Virus record (IMG/VR): IMGVR_UViG_3300009082_000043
Coordinates: 1-33,725 of that record
Length of the DNA: 33,725 bases
Reading direction: 5' to 3' (one strand)
DNA from: a virus
Part shown: piece by piece, positions 4,325 to 31,818 of the stretch
How positions within the stretch are numbered: position 1 is the first letter of the stretch
Layout of the letters: each line of letters begins with the position of its first letter
Program-made: the position numbers and the translations under genes
The notes under the pieces: model-generated
What the model was told of the DNA's origin: nothing
Seen by the model: the letters and a program-made list of their open reading frames with translations, nothing else
Databases searched by the model: none

Positions 4325-4422
4325 TACTCTATTCGCTTCAAAATAACTTTGTAGTGGTGATGCTGATTACTCTCATTCAAGACTCCTGATACATTCCAAG
4401 TAACTCCTTCGGGGTCAACTAC
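4324..4422 (-). pseudogene. Out-of-frame C-terminal remainder of the head-tail adaptor
   Basis: 32 sense codons, open from about 4422 to a TAA at 4326-4324, in the -1 frame relative to the adaptor gene that stops at 4419. The encoded text reads VVDPEGVTWNVSGVLNES, then a His-rich HHHYKVILKRIE. It has the look of the C-terminal strands of gp16-type adaptors, and its stop forms a TAATG overlap with the next gene. It has no start codon or ribosome binding site of its own. Joining it to the 76-residue upstream part gives about 110 residues, the usual family size. Confidence 0.7.
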
Positions 4423-5271: not shown

Positions 5272-5399
5272 CTTTTTCTCCTAGATAAAATTTCACTTTA
5301 CTATCCTTAAATAAAAACAGCTAGTAAATTGTTAAGTTTAAATATTTTTATAAATCTCTAAATATTAGACTTTAAATTGTAAGGAGTTAAATAATCGAT

Positions 5400-5431
5400 A
5401 AAAAGAGGCTTATATTTTCATATAAGCCTCT
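5400..5431 (-). terminator. Rho-independent terminator after the major capsid gene
   Basis: Inverted repeat with perfect 12-bp arms at 5404-5415 and 5420-5431 (AGAGGCTTATAT and its complement) and a 4-nt loop. On the minus strand it is followed directly by TTTTTATCGATTATTT, a proper U-tract. It begins 27 nt past the capsid stop. The next 130 nt up to the connector gene are very AT-rich and could hold a promoter, though I see no convincing -35/-10 pair. Confidence 0.8.
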
Positions 5432-5457
5432 CTATATTACTTCAAAGACTGCTCAGA

Positions 5458-6524: not shown

Positions 6525-7730
6525 TTAACTCCTAATAATAGAAGTCAACGCCTTCTTGATTAACTCTTTTTGTTTTGATACATCCAACTTCTTGAATTTT
6601 TCTTCATCTAAAAGAGTACTAACCTCATCATCCGATTCCTCTTTTAAATCTAAGTCTGTCTTGATAATAGTACCCTTGCGACTAGGAACTAATCTTATCT
6701 TTCCTAGACGACTATCCAGGGCCTTCACTACTACCTCTTCAATTTCACCCAATTCTAATGATTTCTCACTAGATACGGGAACAGGCTCTGATTTCTTTTC
6801 TAAAGCAGCTAAAATTTGGTCAACTTTAGCAGCTAAAGAAGCAATCGCTTCCTGAAGAGCCATAGTGTCGTCAGTTTTAGTTGTTTCAGTAGCAGCTTCT
6901 GCAATCGCTTCAGGAACAGTTTCTGCAGCAGTTTCCTGGGCAGCTTCCTGGGCAGCAGTAGTAGCCGCTTCAACAACAGCAGTATCAGTAGTCACTTCAG
7001 CAACAGCCTCTTCAACCGCAGCAGCTACCTCGGTAGCAACCTCCTCTACTACTGCGTCTATAGCAGGAGTAGGAGTGGGTTCCTCTTTTGGTACAGTAGT
7101 TGGAGTGACATTCTCTACATCAGTGGCTTTAGAAATTTCTTCTATAGTTTTCTCTGTTTCCACCTCGTAATCCCTCCTCTCTTCAGAATCCTCAAGGGGA
7201 ATACTTTCGAGAGCTTTACATATTCCCCCTATTAAACTCAAACACTTGTCACTTACTTGAAATTCCGCATTTGGATTAGCAGGTAAGCCCACAATACTTA
7301 CTTCTAAAATTTCAATGTCTTCTACTAAATTAAATTCCTGTTTAGTAGAAGAATCGAACTTTCTACTACCTTTGATAAGTTTTCCTCCCACAGAAAACTT
7401 ATTCAAAATTCCCTCTTGAATTAATTGCCAAATATCCGGACGAGTCTTACTAATAAATGCCTCAATCCATAATCCTTTTTCATCCACTCCCGCATCAAGA
7501 ATTTTTCCTACGGGAGGTTGGTCATGCTTATGCTCATAAAAAAGTGTGGTGTTCTGTTTTAAATCTTCTACAGCATGAACTAACGCATCTTTGGAAATTA
7601 CATCATTCTGTCTATCTAAATCACTAGTAGCAGCATACCCTCTAATCACCCATACATCGTTATCAGTTACACTCTTTTTAATTTCAAGAGCAGGAAAGAA
7701 ACTAAATTCTAGTGCAGTTTTTTTATTCAT
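6525..7730 (-). CDS. Prohead protease fused to a scaffold-like domain
   Basis: A 401-residue protein. Residues 1-160 are an HK97-type (U35) prohead protease: GYAATSDLDRQNDVI, FYEHKHD with the likely catalytic His67 or His69, FSVGGKL with Ser113, and ILEVSIVGLPANPNAEF with Glu143 as the third member. Residues about 195-290 are low-complexity, very rich in Glu, Ala, Thr and Val. The C-terminal third holds a coiled coil (LQEAIASLAAKVDQILAAL) and charged helices, the usual scaffold (delta-domain) character. No internal start with a ribosome binding site is seen before MALQEAIASL, so the scaffold is probably made only as a fusion. No Shine-Dalgarno sequence is visible upstream of the ATG at 7730. 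Confidence 0.85.
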   Translation of the reverse strand: MNKKTALEFSFFPALEIKKSVTDNDVWVIRGYAATSDLDRQNDVISKDALVHAVEDLKQNTTLFYEHKHDQPPVGKILDAGVDEKGLWIEAFISKTRPDIWQLIQEGILNKFSVGGKLIKGSRKFDSSTKQEFNLVEDIEILEVSIVGLPANPNAEFQVSDKCLSLIGGICKALESIPLEDSEERRDYEVETEKTIEEISKATDVENVTPTTVPKEEPTPTPAIDAVVEEVATEVAAAVEEAVAEVTTDTAVVEAATTAAQEAAQETAAETVPEAIAEAATETTKTDDTMALQEAIASLAAKVDQILAALEKKSEPVPVSSEKSLELGEIEEVVVKALDSRLGKIRLVPSRKGTIIKTDLDLKEESDDEVSTLLDEEKFKKLDVSKQKELIKKALTSIIRS

Positions 7731-7792
7731 GGTATTTACATAAATAAAAACAGAAAAAGAAATTAAAGGTTAAAAATTTTTTACTTTTTTAA

Positions 7793-10396: not shown

Positions 10397-10529
10397 TGCA
10401 ATTTCTCCAAATTCTAGTCACTTACTTGAAATTAAAAACAAAATAAAGATTCTTTAGTTTAATTCTTTCATGAAATTAATAGGTATACATCACTTTTCTA
10501 TTTGTATCTAGGCAATTCCCTGTGTTTCC

Positions 10530-12878: not shown

Positions 12879-14231
12879 TTAAGAAGTTTTCTTAACAAAC
12901 ATTACATCTACATGTACATCAGTAGCGTTTTTAGCAATTCCTCCTAACCAAATATACTCTCCAGAACCAAAACCTGCAATAGAGGTCACCCAACCATTTG
13001 ACCCATCCCAATAATATTTGGTTCCTGCAGTAGCTCCAGAAAGAATACCTGTCAATACTGTATCATTGGCTAAGACTTTTACAAGTTGTCCTGCACTTTT
13101 AGTCTCAGCGGCTACTCCTATAATTGCTTGTGCTACAGTAATATCATCGTAGGGTAGAATAGTATTATTTGCACTTATATATACTAAATCACCCGCACTA
13201 ACTCCGCCCGTACCCACTGTATATTCAATACCTCCCACTCCCGCAGCAATTTCTGCATAAATTTCCTGTAATGCTGCTTCAACATCAGTAGTAGAAGTAT
13301 AACCACCCACATCCTCAATACCTATAATAGAGGCTCCTTTTCCATTAGCAACTGAAGCTAAATCTTCTGCTTTAACTGCCTTAGCATCGTTAAAAGCAGT
13401 AGACCAATCAATTGCTAAATTATCAGAACCATCATCAACTAAACCTGCTCCTGCAAAATCACCAGGTTCTACTCCCACTTCGTTACTGGTAATTTTTAAC
13501 CCGCCTCCAGATAACAGATTTAATCTAATGTCACTAGATACTATTTCTACCCCAGTAGAAGCAGTGAGGGCCTCAAACTCTTTCTTAACCCAAGGACCTG
13601 CTCCACCAAAATAGTAAATACTATCAGTTTCATCATCTACACTTACGAATGTTCCAGTAGTTACTGTAGTAAATTCCCAACTAGAACCATTATATTCTAC
13701 AATCTCGTAATCATGTCCTGCCCAAGCTCCAGTACCTGTACCATTAATTAAGTACCTATCTCCAGTACTAGGTGAACCCGGAGGAGTCAAGAGAATATCT
13801 AATACTGACTCTTGCCATTCCGCACTTGTACCCGAAGCAGCTATTTGAGTATCTACATAATTTTTATCTACTAATTGCGCAGGGTCATTAAAACTTTTTG
13901 CAGCATCATAAGCAACTACTCCTGTAAAATCCCTAGTACCATCCACCTTTGAATACTGAGTATGGTCATCATCTCCTAAACCTGCAATACTTCCATGGTC
14001 AATTGAGGCGACTGTAAAATGTTCATCCGCACTAAAATTTAACAATTGGTCATGGTCAATAACTCCAAAAGCTAGTAAGGATGCAGCAATTTTACCTGTT
14101 GCATCTAACTTAATCGGCTTGCCCGCATCATCTATCCCAGCAGAAGCTGCTACAAAATCAGCACTCTCATATGCTCCCGCAGTTTCCTCATAATCTCCTT
14201 GGGCATTCACAAAAATGAATTTTTTAGACAT
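12879..14231 (-). CDS. Fibre-type protein with DUF2793-like module and C-terminal beta domain
   Basis: A 450-residue, Gly/Ala/Asp-rich protein in three parts. Residues 1-130 carry repeated DH-x-L and LGDDDHTQYSKVDG turns common in fibre shafts. Residues about 138-217 are a DUF2793-like module (PPGSPSTGDRYLINGTG, AGHDYEIVEYNGSSWEF, then a final aromatic strand) shared with two other proteins in this window. Residues about 338-450 form a beta domain (AGDLVYISANNTI, IGVAAETKSAGQLVKV, GTKYYWDGSNGWV) that also exists as a separate gene at 14609-14995. A strong GGGAGGG site and a following hairpin suggest high expression. Likely a fibre, spike or head decoration. Confidence 0.65.
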   Translation of the reverse strand: MSKKFIFVNAQGDYEETAGAYESADFVAASAGIDDAGKPIKLDATGKIAASLLAFGVIDHDQLLNFSADEHFTVASIDHGSIAGLGDDDHTQYSKVDGTRDFTGVVAYDAAKSFNDPAQLVDKNYVDTQIAASGTSAEWQESVLDILLTPPGSPSTGDRYLINGTGTGAWAGHDYEIVEYNGSSWEFTTVTTGTFVSVDDETDSIYYFGGAGPWVKKEFEALTASTGVEIVSSDIRLNLLSGGGLKITSNEVGVEPGDFAGAGLVDDGSDNLAIDWSTAFNDAKAVKAEDLASVANGKGASIIGIEDVGGYTSTTDVEAALQEIYAEIAAGVGGIEYTVGTGGVSAGDLVYISANNTILPYDDITVAQAIIGVAAETKSAGQLVKVLANDTVLTGILSGATAGTKYYWDGSNGWVTSIAGFGSGEYIWLGGIAKNATDVHVDVMFVKKTS

Positions 14232-14246
14232 GCCGAAACCCTCCCT

Positions 14247-14585
14247 TTATTCATTAAAAATAATTTTTCCTGTATCTGGGTCATATCCCCAGTTCTTATC
14301 TTCAATTTCATATTTATCTGTTAATCTTTGAACGTATTCCTTATACTCCTTATCTGCTAACATATACTGTTTAAGATTGACATTCTTCTGTTCCTTCAAT
14401 GAAGTATATTTCTGACTTAACTCCATTACTTTTAACTTATACACCTCCATCTGTAACTGAACATTATTTAAAAGTAAATCCTGTTTTTCCAATATTAACT
14501 TCTTGTTTATTCTTCTAGTGAGTGAAAGTTCTACTTGACACAACTCAGAAGAAGTTAATGCTATCTCGTTTTTATCCTTTTTCAT
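14247..14585 (-). CDS. Coiled-coil protein in fibre cluster
   Basis: A 112-residue, strongly helical protein. A long heptad-like region (LTRRINKKLILEKQDLLL through LKVMELSQKYTSLKEQK) occupies about residues 20-75, and a short globular end with YDPDTGKIIFNE follows. The composition fits an intravirion coiled coil or an assembly chaperone for the adjacent fibre protein. No known family is recognised. Confidence 0.5.
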   Translation of the reverse strand: MKKDKNEIALTSSELCQVELSLTRRINKKLILEKQDLLLNNVQLQMEVYKLKVMELSQKYTSLKEQKNVNLKQYMLADKEYKEYVQRLTDKYEIEDKNWGYDPDTGKIIFNE

Positions 14586-14608
14586 TCTATTTTCCTCTTG
14601 AAATAATG

Positions 14609-14995
14609 TTAATTTCTAATCACCCTATTTTGACTTACTTCTACCAACAACGAAGAAGAAGATTTTCCTATTCCCACCTTTACAACTACACTTCCAGATA
14701 ATGTAGGAGGAAATACAGTAATTTGTCCTGGTACTATATCTAAAAAATATGTACTATTCTCAACTAATCCCGACTTTTCTAAAAATCCTCCAATTCTTAC
14801 TGTACACTCTAAATTGTTTTTCTTCGCAGTTATAAATCCTACTACTCTGGAGGTAGTTAGACTTAGGGCAGATGCTTTAGAAACCATATTTGGTCCTGAA
14901 AAATAAACAGCATCTCCTACTATTTCTTGAGTAGTACAAATCACTCCCTCAATAATATTATCATCTTTTCTAATTGCAGTAGAAATTGCAGTCAT
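14609..14995 (-). CDS. Stand-alone homologue of the fibre C-terminal beta domain
   Basis: A 128-residue all-beta protein. Its order of features (GDAVYFSGPNMVSKA, VVGFITAKKNNLECTVRIGG, NSTYFLDIVPGQITV, VVKVGIGKS) follows the last 110 residues of the 450-residue fibre-type protein two genes downstream: Gly-Asp-x-Val-Tyr-x-Ser, then Val-x-Gly, then a Tyr-rich turn and final strands. A single-domain decoration or fibre-tip protein is likely. The homology is seen by eye and is low in identity. Confidence 0.5.
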   Translation of the reverse strand: MTAISTAIRKDDNIIEGVICTTQEIVGDAVYFSGPNMVSKASALSLTTSRVVGFITAKKNNLECTVRIGGFLEKSGLVENSTYFLDIVPGQITVFPPTLSGSVVVKVGIGKSSSSLLVEVSQNRVIRN

Positions 14996-15048
14996 AATAA
15001 ATCTCTCATAATTAAAACAAAATCTAAAACTGATAAGTTTAATTCTTT

Positions 15049-16086
15049 TTAATACTGATATACCACTTTTCCATTCTCATCAGTAATTTCTATATGTTTG
15101 TCAGATTCTATTTTATCTTGAATCCGCTTCTTCTTCTGTTTTTCTGTCATCTCTTTAGAAGCGGATTCATTCTTTTTTATGTCAAATAAACTGCATAAAA
15201 GTGACTTATTTGAATTCTTTCCAGCAGGATTTACTTCACTTACTCTTACAACAGTATATATCTTTGAGACGGGTTTTTCTCCCGTACCTTTAATGGGTTG
15301 AGTAGTTCTAGTAACTCTCTTAATAGACCTTATAATGAAGCTAGATTTACTGGAAACTATCACCTCTCTTTCACTCTTTATATGACTAAAGGCAGAAATA
15401 GCTACTGCTCTGGATACGTTAGAAGTTACAAAAATTGTATTACCGAATTGTTCAGCCACTTTTCCCGTAGATGACCAAGACGAAACTCCTTTCATATTTA
15501 TTCTTTGTCCTGACTTTAATTTAGAATTGATAGTTTCGGGAAGAACCATTCCTCTAAAAATAGGTTCATCATACTTAGGAGCCTTTGATATATACTGTTC
15601 TATCAATTGTGCTTTACGTTTATCAGATGAGTCGGGATTTTTTCCCATTTGAGCATTTCTAATATCTCCATAATTGTCACAAGTATAGTGGTTTAGGGCT
15701 GAACGTATATCTCTCACTTTAGTAGAATCTGCCTCTTCTCCTATGTCAGCAGCTATCAACTTCTCTCTTTCTCTATTACCTTCTATTGAATTAATACTAG
15801 TGGTTACTTCTCTATGTCCTCTAGTAGCTATAGAAGAACCAGAAGGTTTTTCTGTACTACCTGATGAAGGTTTAGAAGTGGAAGACGTTGAAGGTTTACC
15901 TCCTGTTTTAGGCGGTTTTCCTTTTCCTCCACTAATGTTAGGTCCACCTAATTGTTGTCCATCTGCTCCTATTGGAATGTGAGTACCATTTACTGTTATC
16001 CAAGTAATATCTTCACTTTTTGATAGCCATTCTGGAACTAATGTCCATATTTTTTCTCTTATTTTGTGTAAATTTTTAGGATTCAT
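15049..16086 (-). CDS. ADP-ribosyltransferase (ExE, R-S-E class), probably virion-borne
   Basis: A 345-residue protein. Residues 24-43 hold DITWITVNGTHIPIGADGQ, a peptide known from phage head/MuF-type proteins. A Gly/Ser/Pro/Lys-rich linker follows to about 90. The ADP-ribosyltransferase domain spans about 105-270 with all three core elements: Arg178 in EPIFRGMVLP, the Ser-rich strand GVSSWSSTGKVAEQFG at 200-215, and the ExE motif Glu239-Arg-Glu241 in KSEREVIV. ExE marks arginine-directed mono-ADP-ribosyltransferases (compare C3/VIP2-type toxins and phage T4 Alt/Mod in role). The C-terminus is Lys-rich. Its place among virion genes suggests packaging and injection into the host, which is inference. 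Confidence 0.75.
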   Translation of the reverse strand: MNPKNLHKIREKIWTLVPEWLSKSEDITWITVNGTHIPIGADGQQLGGPNISGGKGKPPKTGGKPSTSSTSKPSSGSTEKPSGSSIATRGHREVTTSINSIEGNREREKLIAADIGEEADSTKVRDIRSALNHYTCDNYGDIRNAQMGKNPDSSDKRKAQLIEQYISKAPKYDEPIFRGMVLPETINSKLKSGQRINMKGVSSWSSTGKVAEQFGNTIFVTSNVSRAVAISAFSHIKSEREVIVSSKSSFIIRSIKRVTRTTQPIKGTGEKPVSKIYTVVRVSEVNPAGKNSNKSLLCSLFDIKKNESASKEMTEKQKKKRIQDKIESDKHIEITDENGKVVYQY

Positions 16087-20342: not shown

Positions 20343-21350
20343 TTATTTCTCACTTAGTAATTCGTTAATACGGTTATTTGTGGTTTGTTGATTAAAAATA
20401 CAATACTTTTCTAAATACCAATATAACCATTTATCTTGTTTTTCACTATTAAACCAACCTTTTACATTAATTGCTCTAATTAAATCAGATAGGTGTCTTA
20501 AGTCATAGGTCACCCAATGATATTCAGGATAACCCCAAGAAATAATTGGCTTGTGATGCATCATTGCTTCTATTCCACTACCACTATTAGCCAATACTAC
20601 ACAATATGCCTTCTCTAAAAAATCGTGAATATTTACTTTTCCAATAAAAATCTTTACTTTCTTGTCAATTTTTGCAAGTCTTTCTCCAACTGCTTTTGAG
20701 AAATTGTTATTACTTGCAAATTCTCCATCCATATATGGGTGTAACTTTACAACAATAGTACGTGTATCTATTCTTGCTAATTCTCTCACTATTCCTTCTA
20801 ACTTTTCAACATAATTGCCAAAATCGTATCTCTTGACTACCTCATCACCCACACATTGTCCTAGTACTAAATAATAATTCTCAAACTCTACTTCAATATC
20901 AGAAGGTTTATAATAATTTCCCCATTTGTTTTCTTTTGCAGTAATCCATTCTACTACTTTCGTATCAAAAAAATGTTCTACTTTAGAACTATTATAATTT
21001 TCAAAATCTGGTTTTTGGTACGCTATGGAGGAAAATGGTCCATATCCTAAAATATCTAATGTAGCATAATCTTTTGTAGGAACAGTAGGTTTTAAAAATA
21101 AATTTAATTTACTGGGTAAAATATCTCCAGTTAAATGAGAAATATCTGCGTGATTGTAAATCACTACATCCATATTAGTATGTATTTGCCAATTATAAAT
21201 TTGACAGTTTAATCCTTCACATACAAACTTAGGATGCTTATAAATCTCAAACCCATTTTCCTCCATAGCGTGAGTAATCCACATTACATGGCTCTTCCAT
21301 GATTCCTTCATATCAGGAAATTTGTAAGGCCAAAATAGAATCTTCTTCAT
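20343..21350 (-). CDS. Capsule-type glycosyltransferase (GT-B, KpsS/KpsC-like)
   Basis: A 335-residue GT-B-like enzyme. The C-terminal half has TIVVKLHPYMDGE near 197-210 and VLANSGSGIEAMMHHKPIIS near 253-272, followed by a Trp/Tyr-rich WGYPEYHWVTYDL. These are the typical nucleotide-sugar-binding signatures of the capsule synthesis family (pfam Capsule_synth; KpsS/KpsC transfer Kdo) and of related GT-B enzymes. The N-terminus (KKILFWPYKFPDMKESW) begins a Rossmann fold. It has AAGGATAG before its ATG and stands between two fibre genes. It might alter host surface glycans or glycosylate the fibre; substrate unknown. Confidence 0.6.
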   Translation of the reverse strand: MKKILFWPYKFPDMKESWKSHVMWITHAMEENGFEIYKHPKFVCEGLNCQIYNWQIHTNMDVVIYNHADISHLTGDILPSKLNLFLKPTVPTKDYATLDILGYGPFSSIAYQKPDFENYNSSKVEHFFDTKVVEWITAKENKWGNYYKPSDIEVEFENYYLVLGQCVGDEVVKRYDFGNYVEKLEGIVRELARIDTRTIVVKLHPYMDGEFASNNNFSKAVGERLAKIDKKVKIFIGKVNIHDFLEKAYCVVLANSGSGIEAMMHHKPIISWGYPEYHWVTYDLRHLSDLIRAINVKGWFNSEKQDKWLYWYLEKYCIFNQQTTNNRINELLSEK

Positions 21351-21363
21351 GTACTATCCTTGC

Positions 21364-21840
21364 TTAAAGAGAGATAATAATACACTTGTAATCTGCATCA
21401 TACGTCTGATTTACAGGTCCAGTAGGTCCCTGAGGTCCAGTAGGTCCCTGAGCACCCGTAGGTCCTTGAGGTCCGGTAGCACCTGTTGCACCTGTTGCAC
21501 CTGTAGGTCCTTGAGGTCCGGTAGGTCCTTGCGCACCCGTAGGTCCAGTGGGTCCTTGCTGACCCAAATATTCGGACCAAGCAGAACCATCATACTTATA
21601 AAACTTGTTTTCGTCTTCAATCCAACAAATCCAACCTTCAGAGGCAACCACGAACTGCCAAGCAGCGCCATCATAATAGGTTATCTTGTTGTCATGACCT
21701 GACCAATCGCCAGTAGCGCTGCCCCCTACAATATACCTATCTCCCTTGGCGGGACTCCCTGGGGGTGATGTAAGGTCCTTGTCTTTGACAGGCTGCTGCC
21801 ACGCAAACTGGTCTAAAATTGGAATACGATAATCTGGCAT
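21364..21840 (-). CDS. Collagen-like short fibre with DUF2793-like head
   Basis: A 158-residue protein. Residues 10-91 are a DUF2793-like module very close to the start of the 1089-residue fibre (same SPPGSP / RYIVGG / [11 protein letters not shown] order). Residues 93-143 are 17 uninterrupted Gly-X-Y triplets rich in Pro-Thr, which should form a collagen triple helix. The last 13 residues ([15 protein letters not shown] region) match the C-terminus of the next protein downstream. A strong AGGAGGAGAAGG site precedes the ATG. The gene looks more GC-rich than its neighbours. Likely a trimeric fibre or adsorption rod. Confidence 0.75.
21412..21564 (-). repeat. Collagen-like Gly-X-Y repeat array
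   Basis: 17 near-identical 9-nt units (GGT CCT/GCA/CAA-type codons) encoding Gly-Pro-Thr, Gly-Ala-Thr, Gly-Pro-Gln and Gly-Ala-Gln triplets. Low complexity keeps all frames open, so open frames here on either strand are not evidence of genes. Unit number is likely to vary by slippage. Confidence 0.9.
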
Positions 21841-21858
21841 TTCCTTCTCCTCCTATTG

Positions 21859-22317
21859 TTAAGGTCCAACTATGTAACAAGAATAATCTGCATCGTATGT
21901 CAATGAATGACGCTTATCTACTGCATCCTTTATATCAGCAGCAGAAGCAGAATTTCCTGCACCATCATCTATTGATTCTGCTTTGTCTACTATACCATCA
22001 TCATCGGTATCGTAAACGGATTTTAACATATCCCCTACTCCTACCTCACTACCACTAATTCTAAAAGCTACAAATCCTTTCAATAAACATAGAATGCTAC
22101 CTGAACTAGTAGCTTTTACCCTAATTTTTTTGCAACTTGTAAATCTGAACAGTGTAGTCTCTGATGAAAAAATGCTAGTACCCCAACCACCCTCTAAATA
22201 TTCCTGAACTTCTATAGACAGTACTCCACAATCAAGTTGCCAATATAAAATGTCAAAAGTAGGTGCAATTTCTAGCCAATCAGTAGTTACGGAAATTGTA
22301 GAATTGTATATTCGCAT
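21859..22317 (-). CDS. Fibre accessory protein with one EF-hand loop
   Basis: A 152-residue protein. Residues 1-90 form a beta domain with three Cys (TDWLEIAPTFDILYWQLDCG, then FRFTSCKKIRVKA, then LCLLKGFVAF). Residues 97-135 are a copy of the large fibre's repeat: an ideal EF-hand loop at 103-114 followed by DDGAGNSASAADI. The C-terminus ends in LTYDADYSCYIVGP, shared with the collagen-like protein. It is a likely tail fibre component or adaptor. No Shine-Dalgarno is seen; the gene starts 3 nt after the upstream stop. Confidence 0.6.
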   Translation of the reverse strand: MRIYNSTISVTTDWLEIAPTFDILYWQLDCGVLSIEVQEYLEGGWGTSIFSSETTLFRFTSCKKIRVKATSSGSILCLLKGFVAFRISGSEVGVGDMLKSVYDTDDDGIVDKAESIDDGAGNSASAADIKDAVDKRHSLTYDADYSCYIVGP

Positions 22318-22319
22318 AT

Positions 22320-22499
22320 TTAATCAATATACTTGACAATAACGTAATCGGGATCCAAGTTTGTTACCTTTTTAGTATTAACAAAAGCCACAAAAAGTTC
22401 ACCATTAACTGAAAGTTTTAATCCATCTTTTCCACTCTTGAACGTCTTTTTCCATATTACTCCTACGTTCTCAGTGACTTTCTTTTTCTGTTCAGACAT
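22320..22499 (-). CDS. Hypothetical small basic protein
   Basis: A 59-residue gene read from the gap, ATG at 22499, TAA at 22322-22320. The text (QKKKVTENVGVIWKKTF, then GLKLSVNGELFVAFVNTKK, then DYVIVKYID) suggests a small beta protein. It overlaps the upstream gene by 8 bp and ends 3 nt before the next ATG. Function unknown. Confidence 0.6.
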   Translation of the reverse strand: MSEQKKKVTENVGVIWKKTFKSGKDGLKLSVNGELFVAFVNTKKVTNLDPDYVIVKYID

Positions 22500-22683
22500 C
22501 TTCTTTTCCTTTCTCTTCTTCTATTATAATTTTTAAAATATTTAAAGTTTCATTGCACTCAAATCTAGTAATATATTTCTTGTCAAAATAAAGTCTACCC
22601 CCATCAGTACGTATTATGATTTGAGGCTTATAAGTACCATAGTTTATGTCAGAACTAGAATTTTTTACGAAAATACAATCCAT
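22492..22683 (-). CDS. Hypothetical small beta protein
   Basis: A 63-residue protein. A GTG at 22698 gives a longer form, but AGAGGA lies 6 nt before the ATG at 22683, so that start is chosen. The sequence (YKPQIIIRTDGGRLYFDKKY, then LNILKIIIEEEKG) is alternating hydrophobic and charged, as in a small beta sheet. No family is recognised; it lies between lysis-type and fibre genes. Confidence 0.5.
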   Translation of the reverse strand: MDCIFVKNSSSDINYGTYKPQIIIRTDGGRLYFDKKYITRFECNETLNILKIIIEEEKGKEDV

Positions 22684-22698
22684 TGTAAATCCTCTCAC

Positions 22699-22965
22699 CT
22701 ATTCAGTTCCGCCTTTAGTCATAAATACACTAGTAAATTTCCATATAGCAGTACCTATACCCGCTATCCAAGAACAAATCTGCAATACTCTCATAAAAAA
22801 TCCAACTGCTTTTTTTACTCCACTTATTTCAATCTCTATTGATGTTAATCTATCGCGTATTTCAGAATTTACTTTCTGCTGTTCCTTGATAGACTCATCA
22901 AGTCTAATCATTAAATCTTCTAGTATTAAATTAGTTGTACCCTTTGATTGTCTAGGTTGGGGCAT
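22699..22965 (-). CDS. Holin-like / XhlA-like one-TM protein
   Basis: An 88-residue protein: a coiled coil at about 15-48 (LIRLDESIKEQQKV-type heptads) and then one membrane helix at about 54-80 (GFFMRVLQICSWIAGIGTAI) with a short polar tail. This is the plan of haemolysin XhlA-type and other small holin-like phage proteins. It adjoins the C39-like peptidase gene, consistent with a lysis cluster. Tail-membrane accessory is the alternative. Confidence 0.5.
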   Translation of the reverse strand: MPQPRQSKGTTNLILEDLMIRLDESIKEQQKVNSEIRDRLTSIEIEISGVKKAVGFFMRVLQICSWIAGIGTAIWKFTSVFMTKGGTE

Positions 22966-22967
22966 GA

Positions 22968-23384
22968 CTATTTCTCCTTAGAAGTGATAATCAATAAATC
23001 TACTACTTCTCGCTGTATCCACTCGAAAGTAGCTCTATTTCGTCTGCCGGTGTAAGGGTCGATATAAATGAACTTATCTCCTACCTTACCTATTAATAAC
23101 ATAAAATGATTACGTTGACCTAAAATAATAGGTCTTCCTTTTATAATCTTCTCAACATCGCGTAATCTTTTTATCTTGACCACTTCTATGTTAAATCGCC
23201 TTAAATATCTAATGATATCGCTGGGATAACATCCTTTTCTATCAATAACTCTCAAATCCTTGCCAATATCCTCTTGCAATATATTCGTATATCCATAAAA
23301 CTTAAGTATCATTTCAATACATGCAGGACCACAGTGCATAGTTTTTTGTTTGATACCTGCAATAGAGAGAAGAATATTTGCCAT
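22968..23384 (-). CDS. C39-like cysteine peptidase
   Basis: A 138-residue protein with the papain-like C39 core: Gln13 and Cys18 in KQKTMHCGPACIEMI, His93 in RNHFMLLIG, and Asp109 in YIDPYTGRR. The usual order (Gln, Cys, His, Asp) is intact. C39 domains cut leader peptides at double-Gly sites or hydrolyse peptide bonds more generally. Here no transporter is fused. The start is taken as ATG at 23384 because GAAGG lies 5 nt upstream; a TTG at 23396 would add four residues. Position beside a holin-like gene suggests lysis or virion-entry use, but anti-host proteolysis is equally open. Confidence 0.7.
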   Translation of the reverse strand: MANILLSIAGIKQKTMHCGPACIEMILKFYGYTNILQEDIGKDLRVIDRKGCYPSDIIRYLRRFNIEVVKIKRLRDVEKIIKGRPIILGQRNHFMLLIGKVGDKFIYIDPYTGRRNRATFEWIQREVVDLLIITSKEK

Positions 23385-23445
23385 AGTAGCCTTCAAGATA
23401 TCTCTAAATTAAAACACGTAAAAGCTTAAAAGTTTTAATTTAATT

Positions 23446-23886
23446 TTATTTCACTAAAAATGAAATATAGACACATAGGCTCGACAAAAGGAAAGCAAAC
23501 CAATAACAGGTCGGAAATGGTCCAAACCAGTCTCTATGCCAACTGACATCTCTACTAATAAATTTACTTAAAGTATATGCGGGATTGAGAATAAACCACA
23601 AAATATCTTCTACTACTAAATACGTGAATAAGGTAGCGAAAGTTAGACACTCAGAGGAAATTGACCAAACGGTAAAAAAATATGGACTGTGGAATCCTAA
23701 TCCTAACATAATAAACATCCAAAAGTGGTACCCTGTAAGGGGTTTACCTCCTAGCAGTACCCTCCAAATAGGATTTCTACGCCAAGTAGGTAACTTACAC
23801 GCCCATCCATCACTTCCTTCTATTTCAATTTCCCATAAAGCGTGGCACCCTGCTAATACTAAAAGAAAGATACCTATTCTCCACAT
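23446..23886 (-). CDS. Polytopic membrane protein
   Basis: A 146-residue protein with about four membrane segments (roughly 3-20, 52-75, 78-98 and 124-144), very rich in Trp and Phe. The motifs WEIEIEGSDGWACKLPTWR, GKPLTGYHFWMF and EDILWFILNPAY look conserved and recur in bacterial proteins of unknown function. Such a protein in a phage suggests an auxiliary or envelope-active gene. No function can be assigned. Confidence 0.65.
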   Translation of the reverse strand: MWRIGIFLLVLAGCHALWEIEIEGSDGWACKLPTWRRNPIWRVLLGGKPLTGYHFWMFIMLGLGFHSPYFFTVWSISSECLTFATLFTYLVVEDILWFILNPAYTLSKFISRDVSWHRDWFGPFPTCYWFAFLLSSLCVYISFLVK

Positions 23887-23895
23887 AGCGTGTCC

Positions 23896-24075
23896 TTATT
23901 TAACAGTATCTCCATCCCAGCACATTCCATTGACAATGTGATATACCATATTGTCGTAAATCTTTCCGGTACCCTTGCAGCTTTTACAGGAAGGTGTTGG
24001 AGTTCCTTCTGGACAGCAACATCCACACTTTTTTTCAATAATTTTTGTAATAATCTCTAACTTATTTTCAGGCAT
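23896..24075 (-). CDS. Small Cys-rich protein with DnaJ-type CxxCxGxG motif
   Basis: A 59-residue gene read from the gap, ATG at 24075, TAA at 23898-23896. It has a CGCCCPEG cluster (Cys17-21) and CKSCKGTGKIY (Cys30, Cys33), the DnaJ-type zinc motif, plus Cys52. It probably binds zinc and may be a small adaptor. It lies between the pyruvyltransferase-like and membrane protein genes. Confidence 0.65.
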   Translation of the reverse strand: MPENKLEIITKIIEKKCGCCCPEGTPTPSCKSCKGTGKIYDNMVYHIVNGMCWDGDTVK

Positions 24076-24078
24076 ATT

Positions 24079-25077
24079 CTACTCCATCCAAGTAAAATGA
24101 TTCATAATTACTGTCTGTTCTCTCTGGGCAATTGCGTTAAATTGCTCATAGATTGCAGAGTCCTTCATCATTTCCAGGAACAAAGGAAGCATACCTTCTT
24201 TATTTGTTGATTCTGTACAATACTTATAGCCCTCTGTTCCAAAAAGATGTTGTATCTGATATTGTACTTTCTTTACTTCTTCAGATAAACTTAATACAGG
24301 TCTACCTGTGATAATAGATAAAAGTATGCCATGTAATCTATGAGTAATACTTCCGGCAGTGCACCTACATATTGCTAAGTACTTGTGGGGTTCTTTCATA
24401 AAAACTTCTCCAAACGCTTCTCCCAATAAAATTCCTCCATAGCGGGGAATATACTCCTTCTGGTAATTTATATAGTCAGAAGTTCCGTGGGGTACCCAAA
24501 TAAAAGAATAACCTTCCTTTGTGAGAGAAGTCAATAGTGTATGAGTACTTTCTATAATATCCGTGTTCTCTTCCGTACGAATAGAAACAGTTAAAACCTT
24601 AGGATAAATAGGTTTAGAAAAATTTCTAGTATTGCTATAATGCCAGAATGATAAGTCGCCCGCAACCACTACATCATTTCTTTCTAAACCTAAAGATTGT
24701 CTCATTTCTAAAGTAGTTCCATAATCTCTTACTCCTATAAACTTGGCACTTTCTATTACATCTTTCCACATTTGATGTTTCACATAAAATTCCTGACTTC
24801 CTGCTCCTATTATTAATAAAGATTTTCCTTGTCCCAAACCTTTTAGAGAATCATACAGTCTTAAATCTACTTTTGTGTTATTCCAATCATGTATCTGCTC
24901 TTCTTCTCTGGAATATAAAATACCCCCAGGTCCCAATATTAGATATTCCGCCTCGTCAAAATTTTTAGTGGGAATATACCCCCTTTCAAGTAAAATCTGT
25001 TCAAGTGCTTGAGTTATTGCCATATCACCTATACTCGTATATTTAGCACCAATTATATAGACAGATTTCATTTTCAT
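24079..25077 (-). CDS. Polysaccharide pyruvyltransferase-like protein (CsaB/WcaK type)
   Basis: A 332-residue protein of the polysaccharide pyruvyltransferase superfamily. Seen are an N-terminal strand-loop VYIIGAKYTSIGDMAITQAL, a second strand with ILGPGGILYSREEEQ, then LLIIGAGSQEF, and the segment IGVRDYGTTLEMRQSLGL that starts the second GT-B-like half. Near the C-terminus comes RCTAGSITHRLHGILLSIITGRP, the typical donor-side SxxxHR/HG helix. Enzymes of this type attach pyruvate ketals to surface glycans, enabling S-layer anchoring or capsule change. It overlaps the GT9 gene by 4 bp (ATGA), so the two are co-expressed. Confidence 0.7.
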   Translation of the reverse strand: MKMKSVYIIGAKYTSIGDMAITQALEQILLERGYIPTKNFDEAEYLILGPGGILYSREEEQIHDWNNTKVDLRLYDSLKGLGQGKSLLIIGAGSQEFYVKHQMWKDVIESAKFIGVRDYGTTLEMRQSLGLERNDVVVAGDLSFWHYSNTRNFSKPIYPKVLTVSIRTEENTDIIESTHTLLTSLTKEGYSFIWVPHGTSDYINYQKEYIPRYGGILLGEAFGEVFMKEPHKYLAICRCTAGSITHRLHGILLSIITGRPVLSLSEEVKKVQYQIQHLFGTEGYKYCTESTNKEGMLPLFLEMMKDSAIYEQFNAIAQREQTVIMNHFTWME

Positions 25078-26366
25078 TTTTCAACAAACTTTTTCAATTC
25101 TTTCAAAATAATTTGAGGAGAAATTTTTCCTATACACCAACCAGGATGCGAATAGTTGACACATTCTTCATTTCTATCATTACAGGGATAGCAACTTACA
25201 GGGGGTTCAATAGAGACAGTTTCAGGATATGCCCTCCATTCACTATCTATAGTAGAAGGTAAAAATATCGTTGGTTTGAAAAAAGAGGCAGCTACGTGTA
25301 AGGGTGAGGAATCAATAGTAATAACTATATTGGCACTTTCTACTATTGCAAACATCTCTCTAATAGAAGTAGTTCCTCTTAAGTCAAGACAATTTGTATA
25401 TTTGAAGAAAGTAGATGTTTTCCCTTTTCTGCGTAATTCTAAACTATCTCCTAGTGTATCTCCTATTAAAATGATACGATATCCTGGAAATGTACTATGA
25501 ATAGTGTCAACTAAGAATTGTCTCCGTTCTCTAGGGTAAATTCTTCTATTATCGGCACTAGTAAATGCTATGACTATATTCTGAGAAGAATCTGAAATTA
25601 CGTTTCTTGCAAACTGTTTCTCCTCGGGAGTTAAATAAATCTCTGGTCTACAGGATATTAAGTTTTTTGGATTTACTCCACATAATATTGCAGATGATTT
25701 TACTCTATGTTGTCTACAAAACTCTTCTTCATATAAAGATAGTTTAAACGATATATCAAAAACTTTTTCATATGAATTTATTTCTACTTCATCTAAACTC
25801 TTCACGCATCTCTGAATATAAGGAAGATATTTAAGAGCATCGGGAAAACGGGTAACTACTTCTACACTATATCCCATAGAGTGTAGAGTTTTAAGTGTAG
25901 GAATAAGCATCAAAATATCGCCTAAACCATCGAAATCAATAACTAAAATTGAATTTTTTATTTTAGTTGTTGATATTGAGTCAAATGACTTAAGTTCTAT
26001 TTTAGTTCTCCTGTGTAATTCATGTACTATATCTTCTCCCCACCCATCACCATACATGCACTCAACTCCTTCTACTTTTTCTAGGGTATCCTCAATATAA
26101 AATTTTTCTTGTAAATTTATATAGACAATGTCCTCACTTGCTATAGGTTGAGCATAGTCAGTGACAATTGCTATAACACAATGAGTTTTAAGAAGAGTTT
26201 TAATGTGGTGTATTACAAAATCGTTATCTCCCAAAATATCAGTAAATACTAATACAAATGGCTTTTGACTACGTAATGACACTATTTTATTTTTGAAGGA
26301 TATTATGGGGGTATGTATATTGACAGGAACGGTAAACTGTATCTGGGTTTCATTCAACTCAATCAT
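25074..26366 (-). CDS. GT9-family glycosyltransferase (ADP-heptose LPS heptosyltransferase-like)
   Basis: A 430-residue protein. Residues 1-140 are an extra Rossmann-like N-terminal domain. From about 143 the GT9 fold begins with ILVIDFDGLGDILMLIPTL, the heptosyltransferase signature loop. It continues with NIVIAFTSADNRRIYPRERR and ITIDSSPLHVAASFFKPTIF (donor pocket), then a C-terminal Cys pattern CYPCNDRNEEC and GWC found in the family. Cellular members build LPS inner core. A phage copy beside a pyruvyltransferase homologue suggests glycan remodelling of the host surface or virion glycosylation. It overlaps the upstream Cys4 gene by 8 bp. Confidence 0.75.
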   Translation of the reverse strand: MIELNETQIQFTVPVNIHTPIISFKNKIVSLRSQKPFVLVFTDILGDNDFVIHHIKTLLKTHCVIAIVTDYAQPIASEDIVYINLQEKFYIEDTLEKVEGVECMYGDGWGEDIVHELHRRTKIELKSFDSISTTKIKNSILVIDFDGLGDILMLIPTLKTLHSMGYSVEVVTRFPDALKYLPYIQRCVKSLDEVEINSYEKVFDISFKLSLYEEEFCRQHRVKSSAILCGVNPKNLISCRPEIYLTPEEKQFARNVISDSSQNIVIAFTSADNRRIYPRERRQFLVDTIHSTFPGYRIILIGDTLGDSLELRRKGKTSTFFKYTNCLDLRGTTSIREMFAIVESANIVITIDSSPLHVAASFFKPTIFLPSTIDSEWRAYPETVSIEPPVSCYPCNDRNEECVNYSHPGWCIGKISPQIILKELKKFVEK

Positions 26367-27977: not shown

Positions 27978-28451
27978 TTATCTGTGAATAATTACTCCAA
28001 ATCCTTCATCTAGAGTAGGTTCTTCATACATACCCTCAAACATTTCCCAAACAGAATTCCATAACGACTCATCATCTTGACCGTGAGGATTGGACATTCT
28101 ACGAGATACACTTTCCATTTGCGTCAATCTTGGAAGAATATCAGCACAGCAAGAATATCCATATTCTCTAGCAATCGCTAATTGTTTATCTCGCAATTTC
28201 TTTGAGACATTAGTTTCATCTGATACTATATTCCATCCCTCCTTCATGAATTCACGCATTAATGTAAGATATCCGAAGGCTATTGCTTTTTCAACTTCAT
28301 AATCAAATAAATATTCTCCACTTCCAACCATATATCTCAAAGCATCTCTACTCAAAATACAATAACCCTGTTCAAAATACTGTTTAGATAGGGTAGACTT
28401 GCCTGAACCTATATTACCCACTAACATGATAAATTGTTTTTCTCTTTCCAT
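27978..28451 (-). CDS. P-loop kinase (polynucleotide kinase/AAA_33 type)
   Basis: A 157-residue kinase. The Walker A motif GNIGSGKST is at 12-20, followed by ILSRDALRYMVG (substrate-side Asp) and VSDETNVSKKLRDKQLA, then a lid rich in Arg (QMESVSRRMSN). This is the pattern of T4 Pnk-type and zeta-toxin-like small P-loop kinases. The start is ATG at 28451, behind AAGGAGAAGT. A longer form from a GTG at 28616 has no ribosome binding site and would be read through strong hairpins, so it is rejected. It lies directly downstream of the candidate structured RNA and could act on nucleic acid ends. Confidence 0.75.
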   Translation of the reverse strand: MEREKQFIMLVGNIGSGKSTLSKQYFEQGYCILSRDALRYMVGSGEYLFDYEVEKAIAFGYLTLMREFMKEGWNIVSDETNVSKKLRDKQLAIAREYGYSCCADILPRLTQMESVSRRMSNPHGQDDESLWNSVWEMFEGMYEEPTLDEGFGVIIHR

Positions 28452-28465
28452 ACTTCTCCTTATAA

Positions 28466-28893
28466 AATAGCGAGAGTATATTCTTGTATGAGGGTGGCAT
28501 TCCTCTCTTGACATGGGAATATACTCTCTCGAGTTTTCTTTCCTATAGACACCTACTGGGATAGGTAACTCTAATCGTCTACTCTTATTTCTGACTGTGC
28601 CTTCAGTCTCACCCACTATCTTTCAAAAATGTCTAAGTGGAGAGTGAGAGTTGCATTGGCTTTTAAGTCTTGGCTCTCTGCTAGTGCCAAATCTTAGCTT
28701 TTCTCTCCACTTATTTTAGGGGGTAGGACTTCTACCTGCTAAGCTTTCTTCCTATGCACAACGGTTAGGTTTCCGTCTGCCTGTATCTTCTATTGGTGTG
28801 TTCGGATTGAGTTACCCTACTCAACGGTCAATGCCATCTCCATTCGTAGTCTCCACCTAGGAAAGGGTCTCGACTGAATTCCGGTCATCTTCC
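28466..28893 (-). ncRNA. Candidate large structured non-coding RNA
   Basis: About 430 nt (within a 495-nt gene-free gap, 28452-28946) with visibly higher GC than its surroundings and no supportable gene. Hairpins seen on the minus strand include: 28819-28824/28807-28812 (6 bp), 28773-28776/28761-28764, 28732-28736/28722-28726 (5 bp), 28703-28713 with 28634-28644 (11 bp, enclosing an inner TTGGC/GCCAA stem at 28686-28690/28670-28674), 28604-28608/28593-28597, 28561-28566 with 28542-28555 (alternatives), and 28517-28528/28472-28483 (12 bp). CTTAGC at 28693-28698 can also pair with 28738-28743, a possible pseudoknot. Size and phage context recall large ornate RNAs such as ROOL or GOLLD, but the family is not established. 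A TATAAT stands just upstream. Confidence 0.6.
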
Positions 28894-28899
28894 ATTTTT

Positions 28900-28925
28900 A
28901 TTATAGTATGCGTAACTGTTTACGC
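28900..28925 (-). promoter_or_regulatory. TATAAT with a dyad in the spacer, upstream of the structured RNA
   Basis: A perfect -10 hexamer (TATAAT, 28905-28900). Five nt further upstream lies the inverted repeat GCGTAA-ACAG-TTACGC (28925-28910), in the place where a repressor or MerR-like activator would bind between -35 and -10. The -35 region (GTCGCG) is poor, so activation or phage-specific control is possible. As an alternative, the dyad may be part of the RNA. Confidence 0.4.
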
Positions 28926-28946
28926 GACCCCTAAAATGAAAAAGAA

Positions 28947-29129
28947 CTATTCTTCACTAATTGTTTCGGATACTTCTAATTCAAATCCATAAAATCGTGA
29001 CAAAGAAGAATTCTCTACTTTATTAAGAGCTTCTTCTGCTTTCTTCTTGTCAGTAAACTCCTGCACAAACTCTTTGTTACATGCATAAGGTTTTCTATAT
29101 TTGTAAATAGTGTAAAGATACATTTTCAA
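28947..29129 (-). CDS. Hypothetical small protein
   Basis: A 60-residue, helical, Lys/Glu-rich protein (MYLYTIYKYRKPYACNKEF, then DKKKAEEALNKVE). GGAG stands before the ATG. It is the last gene before the structured RNA in the direction of transcription. Family unknown. Confidence 0.55.
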   Translation of the reverse strand: MKMYLYTIYKYRKPYACNKEFVQEFTDKKKAEEALNKVENSSLSRFYGFELEVSETISEE

Positions 29130-30739: not shown

Positions 30740-31312
30740 TTATTTTAAAATAGTTATTGTGAAGTAAACGCGTAAATAACTAGATATAGGTTCAAATAAA
30801 TAGACTGGTTTCAATCTCTTCTTTCCAAAGGTTTCTCCTATATCTATTGTAGCGTAAATAAGGGCTTCTCTATATGCTTTCCAACTATCTGGATTTAATC
30901 CTACTTGTGACAGTATGACCTTACTTCTTTTGTATCTCCAGTTCTCAAAATCAGTGTAGGTTACAATCAATCCTTTATTGGCTAATTTAACTGCAGTAGG
31001 TAAACATATCCAGCAACTGTCATATGGGTCTAAATCAACAACATCAGCAGTCATTCCGCTTCCGTGCAATAAATTTAAAAATCTATCTGCTGGTAAATGA
31101 TAGTTTGTTTCATATTGGGTATCCAAATCGTTTGTCATTGCCTCAATTTTCATTCTAATATACCTATTACTATTTCCTGCATATGCATCTATCAAAGTTC
31201 GTGTACCTACCTGCTTTACAAAGTGTCGGTCAAGGTCGTACTTAAAATCTAAACGTTCCTGATACCTATTTGCTCTATTTCTTTCTTTATAATTATTTTC
31301 AGGAAGATTCAT
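30740..31312 (-). CDS. Trm1-like SAM-dependent methyltransferase homologue
   Basis: A 190-residue Rossmann-type protein. LIDAYAGNSNR at 40-50 is a motif I-like loop. VVDLDPYDSC at 91-100 and KGLIVTYTDF at 113-122 match the DLDPYG-S and VTxTD motifs of the tRNA guanine-26 N2-dimethyltransferase (Trm1) family. The protein is much shorter than Trm1 and lacks its C-terminal domain, so target and activity are open. It overlaps the radical SAM gene by 4 bp (ATGA). It could modify host or phage RNA or DNA. Confidence 0.6.
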   Translation of the reverse strand: MNLPENNYKERNRANRYQERLDFKYDLDRHFVKQVGTRTLIDAYAGNSNRYIRMKIEAMTNDLDTQYETNYHLPADRFLNLLHGSGMTADVVDLDPYDSCWICLPTAVKLANKGLIVTYTDFENWRYKRSKVILSQVGLNPDSWKAYREALIYATIDIGETFGKKRLKPVYLFEPISSYLRVYFTITILK

Positions 31313-31818
31313 TTTAACCTCATCAGAACTTCATCTTTAGGTAGAGGGCAATCTGTCCTCCATTTTATTTCGTCTCTGACCTTCCATCCTTCAAGATTAA
31401 TGTCTTTTGGTAGTTTTACTCCCTCAAATAAGTTTAAATGAAGAGATTTTCTTTCTTTCATAGAAGGATGTAGAAAGTTATTCAAGGTGACAAAATCCTC
31501 TATATCAGTAAGATTATTAGTATGAATTGTCAAGTTAATTCCATCTAATAGTTCTAATAAATATTGAATCCAATAAACGTTTATACATAATGCAGTATAC
31601 ATGTAAATTTTTGTTTGTGTATTTTCCTCCCTAATCTCAGTAATTGTCTGCCTCACTAATCCTGGTCGTAACATAGGTTCGCCACCTGTCAACATAATCT
31701 CATCATAATCGGCATAGGAAGTACAAATAGGTATAGCAGTCAAGTCCCAAAACTTATTGCAACACTTCTCACAATTACGTCCACATTCTTCAAATAAAAG
31801 AAGTCTAAGTTTCTTCAT
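31309..31818 (-). CDS. Small radical SAM protein
   Basis: A 169-residue protein with the CX3CX2C cluster (Cys12, Cys16, Cys19, in FEECGRNCEKCCN) that binds the 4Fe-4S cluster, and GGEP at 45-48 (DEIMLTGGEPML) for SAM. The rest fits a short partial barrel. Size resembles activase or small modification enzymes; there is no added SPASM domain. It overlaps the upstream Zn-ribbon gene by 14 bp and the methyltransferase-like gene by 4 bp, so the three are co-expressed. Substrate unknown. Confidence 0.75.
   Translation of the reverse strand: MKKLRLLLFEECGRNCEKCCNKFWDLTAIPICTSYADYDEIMLTGGEPMLRPGLVRQTITEIREENTQTKIYMYTALCINVYWIQYLLELLDGINLTIHTNNLTDIEDFVTLNNFLHPSMKERKSLHLNLFEGVKLPKDINLEGWKVRDEIKWRTDCPLPKDEVLMRLK

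Follow-up and report, generated by a model that had tools for sequence, protein, structure and literature searches.

A candidate structured non-coding RNA in the largest gene-free stretch of an uncultured phage record

Few large structured RNAs are known from phages, and the roles of GOLLD and ROOL are not known. ROOL (RF03087) forms a homo-oligomeric RNA nanocage. OLE RNA and HEARO RNA are long structured RNAs that abut the ribosome-binding site of a downstream gene, and in this they resemble the candidate described here. GOLLD is often >800 nt long and has a conserved 3' region, and both ROOL and GOLLD are frequently located near tRNA islands (PMC12286853). A further independent class, if true, would mean that large RNAs evolve repeatedly in phages, and would supply a new system in which to ask what such RNAs do.

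The window analyzed here (the whole stretch of DNA, 33,725 bases) is a virus record from an uncultured phage (IMG/VR IMGVR_UViG_3300009082_000043). Because no terminal repeat was found in the 33,725 bases and no counterpart of the putative large terminase of a relative (G002) was matched within them, the record is probably a tailed-phage fragment. The minus strand carries almost all supportable genes. Those for structural proteins (MCP, portal, Mu F-like protein) occupy 0-10 kb, and genes of polysaccharide type occupy 20-26 kb; the region 26.7-28.5 kb encodes a 5'-3' exonuclease, a Zn-ribbon protein and a polynucleotide-kinase-type P-loop kinase, and small genes fill 28.9-33.7 kb. The late gene module includes a protein with an NAD:arginine ADP-ribosyltransferase (ART) domain (15049-16086; PF01129, E 4e-5), three phage genes at 20343-26366 carry Capsule_synth, polysaccharide pyruvyl transferase and glycosyltransferase family 9 domains, 22968-23396 encodes a Peptidase C39 family protein, and 31309-31818 encodes a Fer4_12 / radical-SAM-like protein that is a member of phrog_31524, whose function is not known. 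The candidate RNA lies in the non-structural part of the phage, and its neighboring genes are all on the minus strand:

28947..29129, minus strand: upstream gene, a small protein of at most 60 aa with no family assigned; stop codon at 28947
28464..28937, minus strand: candidate structured non-coding RNA, outer limits set by the outermost helices; no coding frame, three perfect stems, GC 0.43
27978..28451, minus strand: downstream gene, a 157-aa P-loop kinase, polynucleotide-kinase type (PF13671, 6e-15; phrog_505 polynucleotide kinase, 4e-12), preceded by AAGGAG

Coding tests of the gene-free stretch

The stop codon of the small gene (28947) and the start codon of the kinase (28451) are separated by 495 nt, and a spacer of ~500 nt is unusual for a genome with overlapping ORFs. 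The sequence-only reading had described 28452-28946 as the only gene-free stretch. When gaps are ranked on the gene strand it is the largest in the 33.7-kb record but not the sole one, others being present at 5272-5457, 10397-10529 and 4325-4418. The further claim that it holds no supportable gene agrees with our survey: no ORF >30 aa begins and ends inside 28452-28946 on either strand, and all frames in the stretch are dense with stop codons. No translated gene emerged there from the ORF survey of both strands or from recoding, where reading TGA, TAG or TAA as sense opened no gene-sized frame. The only long frame to cross the stretch is that of the kinase when extended upstream, in frame, to a GTG (27978-28616), and this extension to 28616 was rejected as unsupported, with relatives of the kinase (43-45% identity) starting at about the ATG at 28451. 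No relatives of the small upstream gene were found with which to check its completeness. The elevated GC content noticed previously is also present, at 0.43 in 28452-28890 versus ~0.35 around it and near 0.35 for the genome.

Perfect stems, predicted fold and transcription

Two long stems had been picked out by eye, and both are perfect, one of 11 bp (28703-28713/28634-28644) and one of 12 bp (28517-28528/28472-28483). The possible pseudoknot between 28693-28698 and 28738-28743 is complementary as proposed (CTTAGC/GCTAAG) and extends to 9/10 positions (28689-28698/28738-28747). A third perfect stem, absent from that reading, is a long-range pairing of 10 bp (28928-28937/28713-28722) that spans 205 nt and starts where the 11-bp stem ends (28713). 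The stems thus abut, running from 28703-28713 to 28713-28722 and then to a hairpin at 28722-28736, an arrangement of perfect stems reminiscent of compact RNAs. The parts of the predicted fold are as follows:

28928..28937, minus strand: 5' arm of the long-range stem, AUUUUAGGGG, partner 28713-28722; 10/10 complementary
28910..28925, minus strand: hairpin GCGUAA-acag-UUACGC; pair probability 0.94, perfect palindrome occurring once in the window
28760..28777, minus strand: hairpin GACGG-AAACCUAA-CCGUU with a 5-bp core and an 8-nt loop; core pair probability 0.91-0.92, three additional outer pairs in the MFE structure
28738..28747, minus strand: pseudoknot arm 1, AAAGCUUAGC; 9/10 complementary to 28689-28698, crossing the 11-bp stem
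28722..28736, minus strand: hairpin GGUAG-aaguc-CUACC, between the long-range stem and the pseudoknot arm; complementarity and folding
28713..28722, minus strand: 3' arm of the long-range stem, CCCCUAAAAU, adjoining the 11-bp stem; complementarity and folding
28703..28713, minus strand: 5' arm of the perfect 11-bp stem, partner 28634-28644; pair probability 0.88-0.98
28689..28698, minus strand: pseudoknot arm 2, GCUAAGAUUU, within the loop that the 11-bp stem closes; complementarity
28669..28691, minus strand: inner hairpin UUUGGC...GCCAAG, capping the 11-bp stem; pair probability 0.83
28634..28644, minus strand: 3' arm of the perfect 11-bp stem; complementarity and folding
28593..28608, minus strand: hairpin GACUG-aaggca-CAGUC; pair probability 0.84
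28472..28528, minus strand: 3'-terminal hairpin with the perfect 12-bp stem; pair probability 0.99

The 10-bp long-range stem reaches a pair probability of 0.86-0.95 when 28705-28947 or 28629-28947 is folded. It is missing from the MFE structure of the full stretch, where other long-range pairings (28805-28873 with 28529-28576) replace it, and these competing pairings may be either alternatives or part of a larger pseudoknot. The 9/10 pairing of 28689-28698 with 28738-28747 would knot two domains together; some bases of its second arm also belong to the inner hairpin at 28669-28691, leading to partial competition. The 12-bp hairpin ends ~10 nt before the Shine-Dalgarno sequence of the kinase.

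Perfect Watson-Crick stems were counted in 6000 dinucleotide shuffles of the stretch. Stems of at least 10 bp arose at a mean of 0.095 per shuffle, three or more of them in 1/6000, and two local stems of at least 11 bp in none (0/6000). Across 665 windows of 496 nt from the same genome, only that starting at 28451 has at least three stems of at least 10 bp plus at least two of at least 11 bp; three stems of at least 10 bp also occur in the windows at 6951, 14151-14401 and 15101. The area 14151-14896, which also shows three perfect stems of at least 10 bp per 496 nt, is coding. Since coding frames are lacking and three perfect stems lie far beyond chance, a structured non-coding element is supported, and the shuffle result is also compatible with non-RNA causes such as inverted repeats in the DNA.

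Bulk folding energy is weaker evidence than the stems. MFE z-scores were -2.83 (minus strand) and -4.70 (plus strand) over 469 nt, and -3.15 (minus) and -3.24 (plus) over 440 nt with a pooled deviation; by folding energy the stretch ranked 8th (minus) and 4th (plus) among 68 equal-sized windows of the genome. Because coding windows of the same genome reach similar z-scores and the plus strand folds at least equally well, this measure is not diagnostic and fixes no strand. The transcribed strand is probably the minus strand. No convincing promoter for the candidate RNA was found: the TATAAT at 28900-28905 lacks a -35 element, and a transcript begun from it would miss the 5' arm of the long-range stem.

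Elsewhere in the window, a two-part motif, TWAAC-N16-TGTTTTTATTTWNG, has five sites on the minus (gene) strand versus 0.69 expected:

5306-5340, 7739-7773, 10427-10461, 15007-15041 and 23403-23437, minus strand: TWAAC-N16-TGTTTTTATTTWNG sites

All are found at 5.3-23.4 kb, in or adjoining intergenic gaps, and two sites occur at matching places in a relative (L002 6041-6075 and 8485-8519). The motif is probably a phage-specific late promoter. No site is present upstream of the candidate RNA; the nearest thing to one there was rejected, with three mismatches (no better than chance) and its upstream half unmatched. After the MCP gene, a terminator-like hairpin (5398-5437) is followed by the promoter-like motif, and the position of this hairpin is kept in related viruses, with compensatory changes in 2/5 predicted pairs.

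Searches for relatives and known families

BLASTN of the stretch against phages and plasmids returned only chance matches (E ~6), and no exact 25-mer was found in IMG/VR. Pattern scans (three of IMG/VR, counting the 25-mer, and one of GTDB genomes) gave candidates that were all rejected. The gapped pattern AAACCTAA-N6-12-ATAGGAAGAA matched 13 IMG/VR stretches, most of which are coding, and outside the pattern itself none resembles the candidate; CCAATAGAAGATACAGG matched 11 IMG/VR stretches, none clearly similar outside it; and GGAAACCTAACCGTTGTG had a single match in GTDB genomes (L088), with no further similarity and judged to be chance. The surroundings of the L088 match resemble a cobalamin riboswitch by eye. 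A DNA search of 36 related virus records gave a 28-nt match in L060 that falls within a coding frame, the rest being short. Single-sequence covariance models were built for 28629-28760 (R1) and 28464-28620 (R2); R1 recovered only the window itself from 37 records, and neither R1 nor R2 matched anything in 21 loci. These searches may have passed over near-identical records, and the lack of close relatives in them does not mean that none exist in nature. An internal duplication (TAAGTGGAGA/TAGGTGGAGA and two TGTnnATAGGAA motifs) was likewise discarded, with a half-versus-half alignment score of 19 that is no better than shuffles (16.3 +/- 2.8).

The MCP has relatives in six IMG/VR records (61-81% identical). 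G002, a 90-kb relative with an 81% identical capsid, is without the element: its kinase homologue (L015) has a dUTPase-like gene directly upstream, its Zn-ribbon homologue has short ORFs upstream and not a structured stretch, and in the parts examined for gaps it has no gene-free stretch >251 nt. In the four other kinase relatives (L023-L026) another coding gene lies immediately upstream. Since the element is missing in G002 and a coding gene is found upstream in five kinase relatives, it appears to be accessory and not a conserved kinase leader. In the related 90-kb virus, a 902-aa protein at L017 7940-10648, by sequence probably the large terminase, contains an intein (PF14890, 2e-12), and a second intein-like sequence, reading ...IIVHNC, occurs at L015 21-482.

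The suggestion of a divergent GOLLD or ROOL was not borne out, as Infernal/Rfam scans returned neither family at the gathering threshold or at E<=5. Rfam 15 cmscan of the whole window gave 0 matches, and the three sub-threshold Rfam matches in 28300-29050 (E 1.9-4.7) are weak and unrelated. The GOLLD model (RF02032, gathering 150 bits) had no match, and a single-family search of the record was also empty at E<=10; that search gave matches in five control genomes, over the cut-off in none. The ROOL model (574 positions, gathering 99.1 bits) likewise had no match and its single-family search was empty at E<=10, but since this search matched no control genome and so had no positive control, cmscan is the stronger test for ROOL. 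ARAGORN found no tRNA in the window, a contig that may be a fragment, and no Rfam riboswitch family matches the stretch.

Nor did the stretch prove to be a remnant of a known intron, with no group I or group II match in 28300-29050. The group I model (RF00028) found nothing in the region, its best hit in the window being 1100-1237 at 11.6 bits versus a threshold of 50 bits. A group I intron proposed by eye from GGAAACCUAA and GAAGGCACAGUC was rejected, as no core could be assembled and the model finds nothing there; the string GGAAACCUAA is also present in some group I introns. The stretch does not interrupt a gene: the kinase aligns with its relatives from its own start codon, and the upstream gene stops at 28947. 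Overall the sequence-only observation holds up for the most part and exceeds chance.

Competing explanations and comparison with described RNAs

We favor, at evenly balanced confidence, a phage-encoded structured non-coding RNA of ~430-475 nt (28464-28937) on the minus strand, belonging to no Rfam 15 family and known from one sequence. Such an RNA would be copied leftward together with the neighboring genes and, at the 12-bp hairpin, would be cleaved from the kinase message or stop short of it. It would adopt a multi-domain fold in which the 10-bp long-range stem and the 11-bp stem each close a domain, the two domains adjoining, joined by the pseudoknot and followed by the 3' hairpin with its 12-bp stem. 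It may then act in trans, binding protein or its own copies during infection, which is the least certain step. The varied genes upstream of the kinase in its relatives, showing that the element is not a fixed kinase leader, agree with this proposal. Against it stand the single sequence, with no homologue found to align for covariation, the plus strand that folds at least as well as the minus, the several coding windows that equal its bulk MFE, the want of a convincing promoter and the several long-range pairings that compete.

The stretch ends directly at the kinase Shine-Dalgarno sequence and the genes are co-directional, as would be expected of a cis-acting leader. The stretch would then be a long 5' untranslated region through which the kinase/Zn-ribbon/exonuclease operon is controlled at the level of translation or RNA decay, for example by the 12-bp hairpin beside the Shine-Dalgarno sequence. 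We regard this as unlikely, given that in L015 and L023-L026 the kinase relatives (43-45% identity) lie immediately behind a coding gene and lack such a leader, that a multi-domain stretch of 475 nt is longer than leaders tend to be and that no riboswitch family matches. We assign a similarly low probability to an insertion or relic, whether a gene in decay, what is left of an intron without an ORF, or a small mobile element that is non-coding and carries inverted repeats. Its deviant GC content and the relatives without the element would suit such an origin, 28713-28937 is bounded by a perfect inverted repeat of 10 bp, and ATTTTAGGGG...CCCCTAAAAT could mark the two ends of an insert of 225 bp as its terminal repeats. 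However, there is no second copy in the window or relatives and no visible target duplication at the repeat ends, the repeat leaves out the 12-bp stem and the greater part of the 11-bp stem, and the densely stopped frames and lack of a group I/II intron match speak against a relic.

Inverted repeats could also serve at the level of DNA, as binding sites, a replication origin or a packaging site, and both the perfect inverted repeats, including GCGTAAacagTTACGC, and the equally good folding of the plus strand are consistent with this. We nevertheless consider it quite improbable: the region has no iterons (only four two-copy families of 7-12 nt), the cumulative GC skew makes no turn here, and the three stems differ from one another with no repeated site. 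Just as little credence is given to an unstructured spacer whose stems are a chance pick from a 33.7-kb genome. Coding windows with similar MFE z-scores and the windows at 6951, 14151-14401 and 15101 with three long stems lend themselves to that view, but only one shuffle in 6000 matched the stretch, and nearly 500 nt of spacer is unusual where ORFs overlap.

The structured-RNA reading may be carried further, to the first known member of a new class, a large phage RNA (~475 nt) with a pseudoknot and no relation to GOLLD or ROOL that would act in trans in infection, possibly as an RNA-only assembly; we think this improbable. One sequence, with no homologue found for covariation, is too little on which to claim a new class, and the present value of the candidate is that of a lead, one sequence without relatives.

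Compared with described systems, the candidate is like group I introns (RF00028) in its stable stems and pseudoknot, and these introns are also common in phages; it differs in having no match in the region and in leaving the kinase gene uninterrupted. It has no Rfam match to OLE RNA or HEARO RNA, and its neighbor encodes a polynucleotide-kinase-type P-loop protein. Unlike GOLLD, it is ~475 nt at most (in a gap of 495 nt), has no tRNA in the window and has no model match, and unlike ROOL it has no match to the 574-position model and no tRNA island. With GOLLD it shares the character of a large multi-domain RNA of phages and prophages, and with ROOL that of a large ornate phage RNA with a complex pseudoknotted structure, and the description "GOLLD/ROOL-like" remains an analogy.
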